This document shows, in pieces, positions 3,490 through 10,363 of a stretch of DNA of 44,923 nucleotides. Position 1 is the stretch's first letter, and each line of letters starts with the position of its first letter. Under the pieces are notes generated by a model. It had not been told where the DNA came from and did no database searches. It was given only the letters and a program-made list of their open reading frames with translations. This stretch comes from Candidatus Poribacteria bacterium (GTDB lineage Bacteria > Abyssobacteria > SURF-5): the NCBI GenBank assembly GCA_016215705.1, contig JACRIR010000049.1:1-44923 (forward strand). Reading direction: 5' to 3'. Both the position numbers and the translations under genes were made by a program.

Positions 3490-4506
3490 TCAAAATCCCT
3501 GAATCACCTTTCGCGCATTATCGCAATAGATTCTTCTGAGCACGTCATCAGGCAGATTGATCCCGTCGATTTTCCAGTTGCGCGTGCGCGGCTCGGTCGG
3601 CGGAATCGCTTTGTCGGAAGTTTCATAGAAACGGAAGATGGTCGAGTTGTATCGCGCCATGTCATCGACCCATCGCCGGACATCGTCAGGCCCGTCGCAC
3701 GCTGTCAGAACAATGGTATCGGTTCCGTGCATGATGCGGTCGGAATACTTCATGAAAAGCTCGCGGGTCGTCTCGGGATGCCGGCCGATTTCATCGACAA
3801 CGGCCGAGGCGTCAACGTAGAAGTTCCGGAACTCGTCGAGATTTGCCATGACGTCGGCAACCTCCATGTCCCACGCTCCGCTCCCCAAATGAGCTCCGAT
3901 GAATGTGGTTCCTGGGTGCTTCCGCAGGATATTGTTGCGGCGCGCCATCAAATCGTCGAAGTTCGGATAGCCTTCACGCCCATGATAGGACCAGCCGGGA
4001 AGTTCGTCGAGCATTATGCGCCACGGATTGTTTTCGTCAACCGGCCGCCAGAATGCCGGGGGGTCACCGACATGGATTAGCACGGGCAGACGGAGCTCGC
4101 CCGCCTTGTCCCATATGGGGTCCAGCCTCGGATCATCGACAATTATCAATTTGCCGGCGGAGTCCCTTGCGAAAAGCCCGAGTTCCTTTGCCACCTTCAC
4201 GCCGACGGCGCCCGCTTCCTTGCCGCGTTCAAGTCGCTCCATTTCGCGTTTCGCGTATCCTTTCTCGTCGATTCTCGAAAGATCGAAGGAGACCATGATT
4301 GCGAGACGGTCGGGATGATTGCGTCTGTGCTTGAAACATATCGACTCGTTATATGAGAGGACTTCCGGATTGTCCATGCCCATAACGAGCAGCGTCGATT
4401 TCTCTATCCCATGCCTGTCCATAAGATTCACGAGACAGTCAGCGTCAGCGAACAGGTGCGTATGAACGTCGATCTTTTGGCGAATGCGGCTGCGGTAGAT
4501 TTCCAT
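3490..4506 (-). CDS. Amidohydrolase-2 family metal-dependent hydrolase
   Basis: This 338-residue TIM-barrel hydrolase is of the amidohydrolase_2 type (decarboxylase or lactonase relatives). Metal-site residues are visible in order: DVHTHLF at the N-terminus (HxH), a lysine in GVKVAKELG, histidines in LIHVGDP and IGAHLGS, and an aspartate in MHGTDT. The open frame extends to 4614, but the ATG at 4506 has GGGAG 7 nt upstream and begins just before the HxH strand, so it is preferred. The gene converges with the ABC operon and diverges from the Cys-rich gene. The substrate is unknown. Confidence 0.85.
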   Translation of the reverse strand: MEIYRSRIRQKIDVHTHLFADADCLVNLMDRHGIEKSTLLVMGMDNPEVLSYNESICFKHRRNHPDRLAIMVSFDLSRIDEKGYAKREMERLERGKEAGAVGVKVAKELGLFARDSAGKLIIVDDPRLDPIWDKAGELRLPVLIHVGDPPAFWRPVDENNPWRIMLDELPGWSYHGREGYPNFDDLMARRNNILRKHPGTTFIGAHLGSGAWDMEVADVMANLDEFRNFYVDASAVVDEIGRHPETTRELFMKYSDRIMHGTDTIVLTACDGPDDVRRWVDDMARYNSTIFRFYETSDKAIPPTEPRTRNWKIDGINLPDDVLRRIYCDNARKVIQGF

Positions 4507-4740
4507 AAAGGGCTCCCTTCGGGTGTGATTACGTTGGTCAGCGCATATCATATCGGAACCCCCCATGCGGCGCAATACGGGTCCGGCCGGTTGACTCTTG
4601 AGAGATAATTCCACTTAAGGAAAAATACATAAGGTGTACGGGAAATTCTGCCCGGCATATTGCCTTTTCGACGAAACGTTTGAATAGTAAATACATAGTT
4701 GTACGACTTAGAGCGCAGATGTTTCCGGCAGGAGGACCGG

Positions 4741-5178: not shown

Positions 5179-6492
5179 ATGAGAATGACTAATCGTGTGG
5201 CGATTCACATGAGAGCCTTTGCAGCCCGCGGCTCCGGGGGGGTCTGGTTGACGCACAAAGCAGGCGCGCGGGGCGCAGCCGTGATGGCAGCATGCGCAGT
5301 GTCCGTTGCGTTGATCATCGGATTGGCGTGGTCAGCCCCGGTGGCTGACGCGGCGGAAACTTCTGCGGTCAACAGGGCATACAAGGTTCTGGCGTGGAAT
5401 GATCTGGGAATGCACTGCTATAACGCGGATTTCCGCGAGTTGGGTGTTCTTCCCCCTTACAATAATCTGTGGGCTCAGGTTGTGCGCGTGGGCAATCCGC
5501 CGCAGATCGTCACAAGCGGCATAATTGTCAAATACCAAATCGTGAGAAACACGAGTTCGGTAACCAAAACCAATTTCTGGACGTACGCGCAGTCACTCTT
5601 CAATCTGGCCGAGCCTTTGCCACCCGACATCGGGCTTACAGGGAAAGGGCTCAGCGGCACAATGGACCTGGCTGGCGATCACTTTGTCGCGGAGGGTATC
5701 CCCGTTACCGAGTATCGCGATGGAGCGACCCGGCCCGATCCTTATCAGTTGGCGTATGTGAGCGTTTGGAATGCAACCACGATGCAGTTGCTTGCTCACA
5801 ATTTGGCGGTCGTGCCGGTTTCCTCCGAGATGCATTGTGACACTTGCCACAACGACGTGGGCGATGCCACAACGGCATATCCCATAAAGCCGACCGGCAA
5901 GGTTGAGACCAACATTCTGACACTGCACGACTATCTCAACCAGGGAAAATACCAGCCTTCATTGATGAATAGCCGACCCGTCTTGTGCGCCAACTGTCAT
6001 GCCTCGAACGCACTCGGAATGCCCGGCGCGGTCGGTGTCTCAAACCTCTCTCATGCCATGCACAACCATCACCAGAATCTGCCTGACATCACTCCTGATA
6101 CGGAGGGTTGCTACAATTGTCATCCGGGCCCGGTGACCAAATGCCTGCGATGCGTGATGACCCAAAAATACGGCTTCAATTGTACAACTTGTCACGGAGA
6201 TATGGCGTTGGTCGCCGGCAACCCCGATCCATGGCTGCACGAGCCGCGCTGCGACGCGGCGCATTGCCACGGCGGGCAGGTTGCGCTCAATCAGCCGTTG
6301 TACAGAAAGTCTACGGGCCATAACGGCATTTATTGCGCCGGATGCCATGACAGTCCGCATGCAATCGCGCCCAGCCGCGAGCGCAAGGATGCGTACAAAT
6401 TCATGATCCTGCAAGGTGAGCCCGGAACGTTGGAAAAGTGCACCGTGTGTCATGCCACGGAACCGGCAGGTGATTTTCGGCATCTGCCGTAG
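5179..6492 (+). CDS. Exported multihaem c-type cytochrome
   Basis: This 437-residue exported protein has a long basic N-terminus, a hydrophobic segment at about residues 34-52 and probable signal cleavage near ADAA at 56-59. Six canonical haem sites CxxCH start at residues 220, 270, 311, 335, 386 and 421. There is also a CX4CH at 358, and a CLRCVM at 322 that lacks the histidine. The N-terminal 160 residues form a haem-free domain opening with WNDLGMHCYN. The ribosome-binding site AGGAGAGGAG is strong. It probably carries electrons in the periplasm or on the cell surface. Redox partners are not in the window. Confidence 0.92.
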   Translation: MRMTNRVAIHMRAFAARGSGGVWLTHKAGARGAAVMAACAVSVALIIGLAWSAPVADAAETSAVNRAYKVLAWNDLGMHCYNADFRELGVLPPYNNLWAQVVRVGNPPQIVTSGIIVKYQIVRNTSSVTKTNFWTYAQSLFNLAEPLPPDIGLTGKGLSGTMDLAGDHFVAEGIPVTEYRDGATRPDPYQLAYVSVWNATTMQLLAHNLAVVPVSSEMHCDTCHNDVGDATTAYPIKPTGKVETNILTLHDYLNQGKYQPSLMNSRPVLCANCHASNALGMPGAVGVSNLSHAMHNHHQNLPDITPDTEGCYNCHPGPVTKCLRCVMTQKYGFNCTTCHGDMALVAGNPDPWLHEPRCDAAHCHGGQVALNQPLYRKSTGHNGIYCAGCHDSPHAIAPSRERKDAYKFMILQGEPGTLEKCTVCHATEPAGDFRHLP

Positions 6493-6704: not shown

Positions 6705-8147
6705 CTATCGTCTCTTGCGGATTTCGATCTTGACCTTCACTTCCGGTGTCTCGCGATCGGCAAACCTGACATCTTCCGGCAGAATAATTTCGGGAGTGAA
6801 GGTCGTGGACGCAGTCAAGGCGGAGAGGTCAATCGGTTCCGTTTGGATTTTCAGAGAGCCGTTGTAACGCCTGTTGGGCGCCATGACTGTAATCGACGGC
6901 GGCGAAACTTCCATTCCGGCCAGATTCAGTCCGTTCGGGAGCCGTCCGCTTGTTTGAACCTTGACAGGCAGACTGATAGGGATCATTTGATGGGCGGTGA
7001 GCGATATCTTGTCGGGCTCGATCGACAAGACGGCCAAGCTTGAGGGATGCGTGACCGAATTCGTTGAAACGACTATCTGCTGAGGCCCTTCTTTTAGCGC
7101 AGACACGTCGAGCGTAATTATCAATGTTTGAGGGTCCATGAGGTCGAATGCCGGCTTGCGACCGAGAAGAGTGACAGTCGCTTCTTTCGGCTTCGGTTCC
7201 TCGATGAACCAATCCGATGCGAGGTTGTGGTATTCGATGGGCGCCACAAAATCGCGGCTGATGGTTCCCGCCTGATACACGAGCACGAACCATAGGCCGC
7301 ACGAAAACAGGACCGCCACCGCTTTTTCCCACAAGTTTTCGGTCGGCCACTGGCGCCATGTCTTTTGGGCCGGTTTTGGAAAACAGTCCTTATAGAATCT
7401 CTCGAGGATAGCGCAAAGCTCCGAGGGCTCGTCCATCTCAGTGAGTCTTTCTTCCCGGGCGGTTGATATCCTCCCGCGCTCCTCTGAGACCACAATGGAG
7501 AGAGCGTCGCAACGCTCGGCCAGCCCAAGGGCGGCGCTATGGCGGGTGCCCATCGCCCCCGCCTTCCCGCTGTGAACCGAAAGCGGAAGGTGACATCCGA
7601 ATCTCGTGACCTTTCCATTCTCGATGACAAGGGCCCCGTCATGACCGGGCGAATGCGGGTCGAATATGCTCTCGAGCAGAGCTTCACTCAATTTGCCGTC
7701 CAGGTCAAAGCCGCCTTCAATGTGACGCTCGATCGGGTCTTTGCCGCGAATCACCACCAGCGCGCCTATCTTCCTCCGGGCAAGGTTCGTTAACGCATTT
7801 GTGAGCGTTTCAATCTCGGGATATCCGGAGAGCACGTCATAATGAGCGCGCAGCGGGCCCCAGATGCTTATGCGCTCGAAGAAACGGCGAAGTTCTTCCT
7901 GAAAAATGACAACGAGAGCAATCAACAGAATGGCAAAGAAGGATTGCAGCACCGTGGTGGACAAATACATGTGAAAAAAACGGGCAACGATATAGATGAT
8001 CCCGAGGATAGTCATTCCCAAGAGAACGAATCGGGATGCTGTCGCCTTGAACCATACGAGCAGCATATAAATCAATACTGAAATGATGGCAATGTCGAAG
8101 AAATCGGCTATCCGCAATGTCTGGATAAGTTCGTTCAGAGTTTTCAT
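6705..8147 (-). CDS. cdaA: Membrane diadenylate cyclase (CdaA type) fused to YbbR/CdaR-like domains
   Basis: This enzyme makes c-di-AMP from two ATP. It has three N-terminal membrane helices (about residues 16-33, 38-58, 66-83), then a DAC domain at about 100-245 with GHDGALVI (DGA at 170-172) and GTRHSAALG (201-204). The second catalytic motif is usually RHR; here it is RHS. After one more helix at about 272-292, residues 300-480 look like two YbbR repeats. In Firmicutes these parts are the separate proteins CdaA and CdaR. The start overlaps the glgB stop by 4 nt, so glgB and cdaA are co-translated. Confidence 0.9.
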
Positions 8148-10363
8148 CGAGGTTCAAGGATCAAACAGCCCAATGGAGGCAATGTGAGAGAGACTGATTG
8201 AGGATAACAGTGGAATGGAATCGGGGCAACATGGACCTCCCCCAGGTTGCCCACATTCCCGCCGCCGTATAATTCGGAATCGGTGTTCAAACGTTCGATA
8301 TACGCGCTTGCTTCCGGCGTTCCGACGCGGTAGTTGTGGCGCATAACAGGAGTCAGATTGAATACGCAAACAAGATGCCCTCTCGAGCACGAACGGATGT
8401 ACGAGACCACTGACTGTCTCCAGTCCCGGCAATCGATCCATGAGAAGCCTTGCGGGTCGTGGTCCGATTCCCAGAACGCAGGGTTCTCACGGTAAAGGGC
8501 GCCGATATCTTTGAGGAATTTCTGAAATCCTCGTCTGAGAGGGTCACCCTCGATACGCCAGTCGAGCCCGCAGTCGTGGTTCCATTCATCATCAGGGGCA
8601 AGTTCCGCTCCCATAAAGAGCAGCTTCTTACCCGGGAAGGAGTACAGATACGCCATGAGGAGTCTCAGGTTGGCGAATTTCTGCCACCTGTCGCCGGGCA
8701 TCTTTCCGAGCAGGGATTTCTTTCCATGAACTACCTCGTCATGCGATAGCGGCAACACAAAGTTTTCGCTGTAAGCATAAAGCATCGAGAACGTCAGATC
8801 GTTGTGGTGAAAACTCCGGTGGATGGGGTCCTTGCCGAAGTAACGGAGCGTATCATGCATCCACCCCATGTTCCATTTAAAGCCGAATCCGAGACCTCCC
8901 AGATACGTCGGGAGAGTCACCCCTTGCCACGAGGTTGATTCCTCGGCAATTGTGAAACAGCCCGGGAATTGTCCGTAGACCGCCTCGTTCAGTCGGCGCA
9001 GGAATTCAATCGCCTCGAGGTTCTCGTTCCCCCCAAAGCGGTTCGGGACCCATTCGCCGGACTTCTTGCTGTAATCGAGGTAGAGCATAGATGCGACCGC
9101 ATCGACTCTCAGGCCGTCGATATGGTATTCATCGAGCCAGAAAAGGGCGTTCGCAAGCAGGAAATTGCGCACCTCGTTTCGCCCGAAATTGAAGACAAGC
9201 GTTCCCCACTCAGGCTGCTCGCCCTGACGCGGGTCCAGGTGCTCGTACAATGCCGTGCCGTCAAACCAGCGCAGACTATGATCATCCTTCGGGAAATGGG
9301 CCGGAACCCAGTCCAGGATAACACCGATTCCGTTCCGGTGGCAGACATCCACGAACAGTCTGAAGTCGTCCGGTGTTCCATAGCGAGCGGTTGGAGCGAA
9401 GTACCCAGTCACCTGGTAGCCCCAGGAGCCGTCAAACGGGTGCTCCGCGACCGGCATGAGTTCGATGTGCGTGTAACCGAATTCCTTGACGTGCTTCACC
9501 AGCCGGTCGGCGAGCTCGCGGTATGTCAGCCACCGGCCTCCATCTTTCTCGATCCGCATCCACGACCCGAGATGAACTTCATAGACGGCCAACGGACTAC
9601 GTCTCGGCTCTCGAAGAGACCTCTCGCTCATCCATTCCCCGTCGCCCCATTTGTATTTGCAGGTGTCCCAAATGACTGAACCGCTCTTGGGCGGGATTTC
9701 CATAGCGAAGGCATAGGGGTCAGCCTTCAGGCGCAATGCGCCGTCGAGGGCCTTGATTTCGAATTTATAGACCGCGCCGGGCTCGATGTCGGGAACAAAG
9801 AGTTCCCATATACCGGAAGAGCCCATTGTCCGCATCGGATACAGCCGCCCATCCCACCTGTTGAAATCGCCGACGATGCTCACTCTTCTGGCGTTGGGAG
9901 CCCACACGGCGAACGTGACGCCCGGGTGACCATCCTGCGTGCCCATGTGTGCGCCAAGTCGTTCATACAGCCGTTTGTGTGTTCCCTCGCCGTGGAGGTA
10001 AAGGTCCATCTCGCCGAGTGTGGGCAAGAACGCATATGGGTCTTTGCGTTCCCATACGCCACCGTCGGGAAACGTGAACCGGACCTTGTACGGAAACGGC
10101 CATTGCTTGCCTTTCACGGCAGCGGCAAACAGGCCTCCTTCGTGGATACGGGTCATCGGTAGGATTTTGTCTTTGTCAAACCTTATTTCGGCCTCGGAGG
10201 CGTCAGGATGGAGAGATCGAATAACAACGGTCTTGCCGCCGGAATCCTCGAGCGGGTGCGCTCCGAGTATCTTGTGAGGGTCTCGCGACTCTCCGGCGAC
10301 AAGTTGCTCTACTTCCTCGGCTGAAGGATGACTAAGGATATCTAACGGTGTTTTTCTGACCAT
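8144..10363 (-). CDS. glgB: 1,4-alpha-glucan branching enzyme
   Basis: This 739-residue GH13 enzyme makes alpha-1,6 branches in glycogen. The N-terminus carries GlgB N-domain and CBM48-type modules (FAVWAPNA at 151, VGDFNRWDG at 164). Catalytic regions are intact: DWVPAHF with D351, GLRVDAV with nucleophile D421, IAEEST with acid/base E474 or E475, and [10 protein letters not shown] with H541 and D542. The length matches the family (about 730). The ATG at 10363 is preceded by CAGGAA. The open frame runs 119 codons further upstream, but that part is not GlgB-like. No other glycogen genes are in the window. Confidence 0.96.

Follow-up and report, generated by a model that had tools for sequence, protein, structure and literature searches.

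A CdaA-YbbR fusion protein linked to glgB and its clade of putative diadenylate cyclases

Known cyclases and the window protein

The closest described system is the cyclase CdaA (DacA; TIGR00159) with its YbbR-domain partner CdaR. In Firmicutes cdaR and glmM are separate genes downstream of cdaA. CdaR contacts the membrane part of CdaA in L. monocytogenes, and the mode by which it regulates CdaA is called unclear (PMC8573169). Deletion of cdaR in P. gingivalis is reported to give higher c-di-AMP (PMC9259658). In cyanobacteria c-di-AMP is described as acting on the glycogen branching enzyme GlgB via SbtB (PMC10117731). MgtE is reported to be bound by c-di-AMP (PMC8844918), and the B. subtilis ydaO riboswitch to control kimA and ktrAB (PMC10284832). 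The literature searches listed no publication that describes a fusion of DAC with YbbR or a DAC gene next to GlgE; the architecture may stand in public databases.

The window is the whole stretch of DNA analysed here, 44,923 nucleotides long. It differs from the Firmicutes arrangement in having the cyclase domain and YbbR in one open reading frame. The features discussed below are:

6705..8147, minus strand: DAC-YbbR fusion protein, 480 aa from an ATG start, with CdaA_N, DAC, a fourth helix and two YbbR domains
7890..8120, minus strand: CdaA_N transmembrane domain, residues 10-86 (Pfam PF19293, E 3.9e-8, 33.8 bits, cut-off 23.8)
7446..7799, minus strand: DAC (diadenylate cyclase) domain, residues 117-234 (PF02457, E 4.2e-36, 123.6 bits, cut-off 27)
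7632..7640, minus strand: DGA motif, residues 170-172, equivalent to B. subtilis D171GA; HDGA at window residues 169-172
7536..7544, minus strand: RHS in place of the RHR motif, residues 202-204, read from the sequence
7281..7334, minus strand: fourth helix, between the DAC and YbbR parts, residues 272-289; a helix in the model, predicted to cross the membrane
6984..7262, minus strand: first YbbR-like domain, residues 296-388 (structure match to YbbR 3lyw, Z 11.6, rmsd 1.8, 86 aligned)
6726..6968, minus strand: second YbbR domain, residues 394-474 (PF07949, E 5.9e-13, 49.4 bits, cut-off 22.3)
8144..10363, minus strand: glgB, 1,4-alpha-glucan branching enzyme, 739 aa from an ATG (TIGR01515, 935.8 bits, cut-off 463.95)
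8144..8147, minus strand: overlap of the glgB stop and the fusion start, ATGA, 4 nt, read from the sequence
3490-4614, minus strand: amidohydrolase gene near the fusion; a homologue is also near the SURF_17 fusion (L031)
5179-6492, plus strand: 437-aa protein that carries several CxxCH motifs and weakly matches cytochrome c7, just past the end of the fusion

The window protein is a single CdaA-YbbR fusion of 480 residues. A reading of the sequence alone had described one protein with three membrane helices, a DAC domain with DGA, a fourth helix and YbbR repeats, and Pfam and the structural model agree on this. It had proposed a domain search as a check, which places CdaA_N, DAC and YbbR all above their Pfam cut-offs and adds a second, weaker YbbR stretch. 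The AlphaFold2 model, for which 30 clade sequences were used, has a mean pLDDT of 83.7 and a pTM of 0.42, with long helices at residues 13-35, 39-57, 61-102 and 272-289. For the DAC part the structural match is to B. subtilis CdaA 9g0g, with Z 26.0. On the YbbR side, residues 382-480 match 2kxy with Z 8.2 and residues 285-479 match 4qdy with Z 10.8. What the window shares with CdaA and CdaR is thus CdaA_N plus DAC, the DGA motif, the DAC fold and a YbbR partner. As in CdaR (PF07949; 3lyw, 4qdy), the YbbR folds follow a helix taken as transmembrane. Unlike in CdaR, they sit behind a DAC domain, as one or two repeats across the clade. The fixed 1:1 ratio of cyclase to YbbR proposed earlier follows from the fusion itself. 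No separate YbbR was found in the window's genome (G000), where the fusion is the sole YbbR match.

The 4-nt overlap with the glgB stop, also noted earlier, is present as ATGA. This glgB is the one match over the TIGR01515 cut-off in the whole genome, so it is the only clear copy. Beyond the fusion are the cytochrome c7-like and amidohydrolase genes and not glmM, which in Firmicutes follows in the operon. Rfam finds three tRNAs in the window and nothing else, and a scan for promoters and terminators gave no clear excess over shuffled sequences.

The family includes a named Abyssobacteria genome, SURF_17 (G002, contig of L031), whose protein is beside that of the window in the tree. Absence of the fusion and its glgB neighbour from close relatives had been named as what would count against the sequence-only reading. 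The fusion is kept in 3 of the 3 family genomes compared. The glgB link is kept in two of them, the window and L162/L002, and is absent in L003/L164. In L002/L162 glgC is next, on the opposite strand, and passes three curated cut-offs.

A separate clade of DAC domains

Relatives were collected by a scan of one genome per species (84,980 species) with two patterns in the membrane part rather than the DAC motif. It gave 75 loci, 59 of them fusion-like (L031-L088 and L096; 30-65% identity) and 16 of them Bacteroidales CdaA. Assembly labels place the fusion-like loci in Myxococcota (many titled 'Deltaproteobacteria'), Thermodesulfobacteriota, Omnitrophota, Elusimicrobiota, Nitrospirota, Binatota, Verrucomicrobiota, Planctomycetota and further groups, and such labels can be wrong. 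Motifs were compared between 62 clade DACs and 67 others: 25 from surveyed genomes, 25 canonical paralogues from clade genomes, the 16 Bacteroidales proteins and L088. The last was assigned to the canonical set before the tree was made because it reads RHR. L087, whose DAC is cut by a contig end, is in no count, L021, which lies on the strand opposite to the frame read, did not enter the canonical set, and L041 was kept in the counts though it is frame-broken in its assembly.

Residues are numbered as in B. subtilis CdaA (D171GA, R203HR, as given in PMC8573169). All 129 DACs share H170, D171, G172, R203, H204 and S222. E223 is kept in 62/62 clade members and A173 in 61/62. Position 205 is where the two sets part. 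It is Arg in 67/67 others, and in the 62 clade DACs it is S (25), A (23), T (13) or V (1). The RHS reading therefore holds, and a lone mutation or sequencing error is ruled out since the Arg is missing there in 62/62. The clade also has D at position 164 (61/62), G at 169 (60/62; L in 49 and I in 16 of the others), F at 184 (58/62; A in 55 and V in 10 of the others), R at 142 (60/62) and H at 143 (57/62). Position 187 is His in 51/62 and varies in the canonical set, the commonest residues being I (28), L (19), F (12), V (5) and Y (3).

In the tree a single branch with SH-aLRT 100 and a stem of 0.88 separates the clade from the rest. The support is still 99 after 23 signature columns are removed, which rules out that the grouping is due to these columns alone. 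The TIGR00159 equivalog cut-off is 188.8 bits, and the window protein scores 180.2. Five further clade members score 178.3, 182.9, 191.5, 177.1 and 185.5 (4/5 below the cut-off), against 209.5-246.2 for five canonical paralogues. Because RHR is missing and the score is below the cut-off, the window protein should be assigned to a variant clade rather than to CdaA itself. The proposed fusion of cdaA and cdaR is thus right as to the joined domains. It does not stand as a simply joined Firmicutes-type pair, since the DAC clade is separate, the pocket is rebuilt, and S, A, T or V replaces Arg205.

The YbbR part itself varies. Eight members (Elusimicrobiota or unplaced) end about 90 residues past RHx, which corresponds to the end of the fourth helix in the window protein, and are without YbbR. 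They nest inside the clade, which suggests that YbbR was lost. L084 is cut by a contig end. Pfam matches YbbR in 15 of 30 clade members. One could argue that the roughly 100 residues past the fourth helix in the forms of about 400 aa are not YbbR, and this is ruled out by the model of L064, a single-YbbR form, where this part matches 3lyw with Z 11.4 (its DAC matches with Z 25.8). In L181, from about 1865 on the plus strand (G133:C494), a clade DAC beside GlgE is without most of the membrane part and the DAC start, from deletion or assembly error. It must be noted that L088 (9947-11173, plus strand; Syntrophaceae UBA1163) also has CdaA_N, DAC and YbbR in one protein, with RHR and PLHDGA. It is outside the clade, so it is probably a second, separate fusion.

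Gene neighbours and c-di-AMP machinery

Neighbour gene clusters were named by profile search of representatives. They include GlgE, TreS-maltokinase, MalQ, GlgB, TreZ, a stand-alone DHH-DHHA1 protein and MgtE with CBS domains. Linkage was scored by tblastn (at least 45% identity, or at least 30% for DHH) in 58 non-redundant loci, which are the 62 clade rows minus the near-copies L061, L075, L080 and L081. An alpha-glucan/trehalose gene is found in 17, a DHH-DHHA1 gene in 16, mgtE in 10, and at least one of the three in 34. Canonical cdaA loci from the clade genomes have any partner in 0/25 cases and Bacteroidales loci in 0/16. Fisher's test of clade against canonical loci gives 7e-8 for any partner (34/58 vs 0/25) and 0.002 for glucan/trehalose alone (17/58 vs 0/25), both P values counting kin genomes as independent. 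Seen from the other side, a glucan/trehalose gene is missing from the available DNA at 41/58 clade loci, and 24/58 are without any of the three partners.

The glucan/trehalose genes are on the same strand as the DAC in 14/17 loci, the exceptions being L048, L086 and L163. The DAC genes of L044 and L064 are followed by GlgE (after 5 and 27 nt), then by TreS, MalQ (L064) and GlgB. Of 25 genomes with GlgE, 11 have it no more than 10 kb from a clade DAC, where 0.15 is expected and canonical DACs give 0; G133 enters this count via a partial DAC (L181), without which it is 10/25. Seven of these 11 genomes (G109-G111, G124, G130, G132, G133) share one subclade, which implies fewer independent cases. 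For the DHH gene, the count at this distance from a clade DAC is 12/42 genomes, against 0.33 expected and 0 for canonical DACs. Counting that subclade, glucan links span about six lineages, the others being Abyssobacteria, Omnitrophota, Elusimicrobiota, Nitrospirota and G089. The glgB linkage from which a tie between c-di-AMP and carbon storage was suggested earlier is real, with one family genome lacking it, and linkage to alpha-glucan/trehalose genes recurs.

Two other neighbourhoods were seen. In L046 a Na/H-exchanger-TrkA_N gene overlaps the DAC end by 11 nt. The YbbR-less Elusimicrobiota or unplaced DACs (L051, L070, L071, L075, L076, L079, L081) have respiratory complex I (nuo) genes near and a DHH gene adjoining.

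Whole-genome searches covered 52 genomes, those of 49 of the 59 fusion-like scan loci plus G000-G002 and G089. The set leaves out L070, L071, L075, L076, L079-L081, L084, L087, L031 (same genome as G002) and the 16 Bacteroidales loci. Three features were found in the window's genome:

L176 7152-7289 (G000:C44), minus strand: c-di-AMP riboswitch RF00379, 93.4 bits
L176 5087-7096, minus strand: KimA-like permease (E 1.7e-61), 55 nt after the riboswitch
L161 7016-8101 (G000:C232), minus strand: DisA, the second DAC of the genome, with DAC, linker and a weak HHH match; it reads RHR

This genome also has a 7TM-HD phosphodiesterase domain and a DHH homologue. Since DisA is present too, the fusion need not be its c-di-AMP source. 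Across the set the riboswitch is found in 6/52 genomes and the 7TM-HD phosphodiesterase in 23/52. In L174 and L175 (G106:C251 and G145:C288, from the genomes of L040 and L096), RHR DACs are about 2 kb or less from a 7TM-HD phosphodiesterase domain. A clade member is the only DAC match in 19/52 genomes, and a canonical RHR CdaA is also present in 24/51 clade genomes. G102 and G117 have the clade-type DAC alone among DAC matches, and riboswitches upstream of a Kup gene and of one for an APC permease. This favours c-di-AMP as the product, if both assemblies are complete enough.

Alternatives and a proposed role

One can imagine that this is an ordinary housekeeping CdaA that had its regulator fused by chance, works as CdaA and CdaR do in Firmicutes, and has incidental neighbours. 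The domain content is that of CdaA plus CdaR, the fold matches with Z 26, 19 of the 52 genomes have no other DAC match, and 24 loci have none of the three partner genes. Against this, the protein belongs to a separate clade on a long stem, it would be redundant in the 24 genomes that also have a canonical RHR CdaA, the window's genome has no separate YbbR match, and the partner genes occur around clade loci, with none around the 25 canonical loci. We consider the housekeeping scenario unlikely.

Somewhat less likely again is that the DAC is a receptor or pseudo-cyclase. Without Arg205 it would bind ATP or c-di-AMP without cyclisation, and signal via the YbbR side or to the neighbouring enzymes. 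An AAA replacement of the whole RHR triplet is reported to inactivate both M. tuberculosis DacA and M. bovis CdaM (PMC3328451, PMC13022847), so loss of the last Arg could lower or abolish activity. That residue is gone throughout the clade, the base-stacking position 187 is mostly His, and 164, 169, 184, 142 and 143 are altered. However, the DGA aspartate, R203, H204, S222 and E223 are all retained in 62/62. The clade-only genomes, two of them with a c-di-AMP riboswitch, also argue against a dead enzyme if those two assemblies are complete.

It is very improbable that the clade makes a different cyclic or linear dinucleotide because of its rebuilt base pocket: the changes do cluster at and around the adenine site as described for Listeria CdaA, where Tyr187 stacks on adenine and segment 140-146 flanks its strand (187, 184, 142, 143; PMC10167629), but 187 varies in the canonical set too, the Leu188 contact to adenine is given as one by main-chain atoms (PMC10167629, PMC11066881), and the riboswitches in the two genomes with a clade DAC only are of the c-di-AMP class.

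We argue, with somewhat better than even confidence, that the window protein is a membrane diadenylate cyclase from a separate clade, with a CdaR-like part built into the same chain, and that it ties c-di-AMP to ion and alpha-glucan/trehalose balance. In this clade, which we call F-type, three helices would hold a cytoplasmic DAC domain. The fourth helix would take one or two YbbR domains across the membrane, so a CdaR-like sensing and regulating part would be built in. The DAC and the outside YbbR parts may act on each other via the four helices. c-di-AMP would be made from ATP, and the linked DHH-DHHA1 phosphodiesterase would remove it. The output may be tied by co-translation or close linkage to GlgB in the window, and to GlgE, TreS-maltokinase, MalQ and TreZ elsewhere, as well as to Mg2+ and K+ transport. 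K+/Mg2+ transport and glucan/trehalose are the likely outputs because of the riboswitch, the linkage, the SbtB-GlgB case (PMC10117731) and the reported MgtE binding (PMC8844918). GlgB would be the first candidate target in the window. The protein would probably serve to adjust storage glucan and compatible solutes to turgor and ion state. The proposed tie to a glycogen branching enzyme would be like that described in cyanobacteria. There the link is a PII-like receptor (PMC10117731), whereas in the clade it is gene linkage and a fused predicted cyclase. The neighbours, the S, A, T or V in place of the last Arg, and the signature 164D, 169G, 184F, 142R and 143H set the clade apart from canonical CdaA.

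A wider claim is possible, and we offer it tentatively. The clade may be a separate class of diadenylate cyclase in many little-studied phyla, often alongside a canonical CdaA, that senses the envelope via its own YbbR, has a site without the last Arg of RHR and its own DHH phosphodiesterase, and is devoted to alpha-glucan/trehalose (GlgE/TreS/GlgB) and Mg2+/K+ balance.

CdaA and CdaR parts in one protein make a simpler object for structure and assay, and the natural variants of the clade allow a test of whether the last Arg of RHR is needed. Outside the cyanobacteria, the genes around these DACs suggest that c-di-AMP is connected with glycogen and trehalose. Relatives in many bacterial groups beside sugar-storage and osmolyte genes hint at a little-explored link of c-di-AMP to carbon or osmotic balance.
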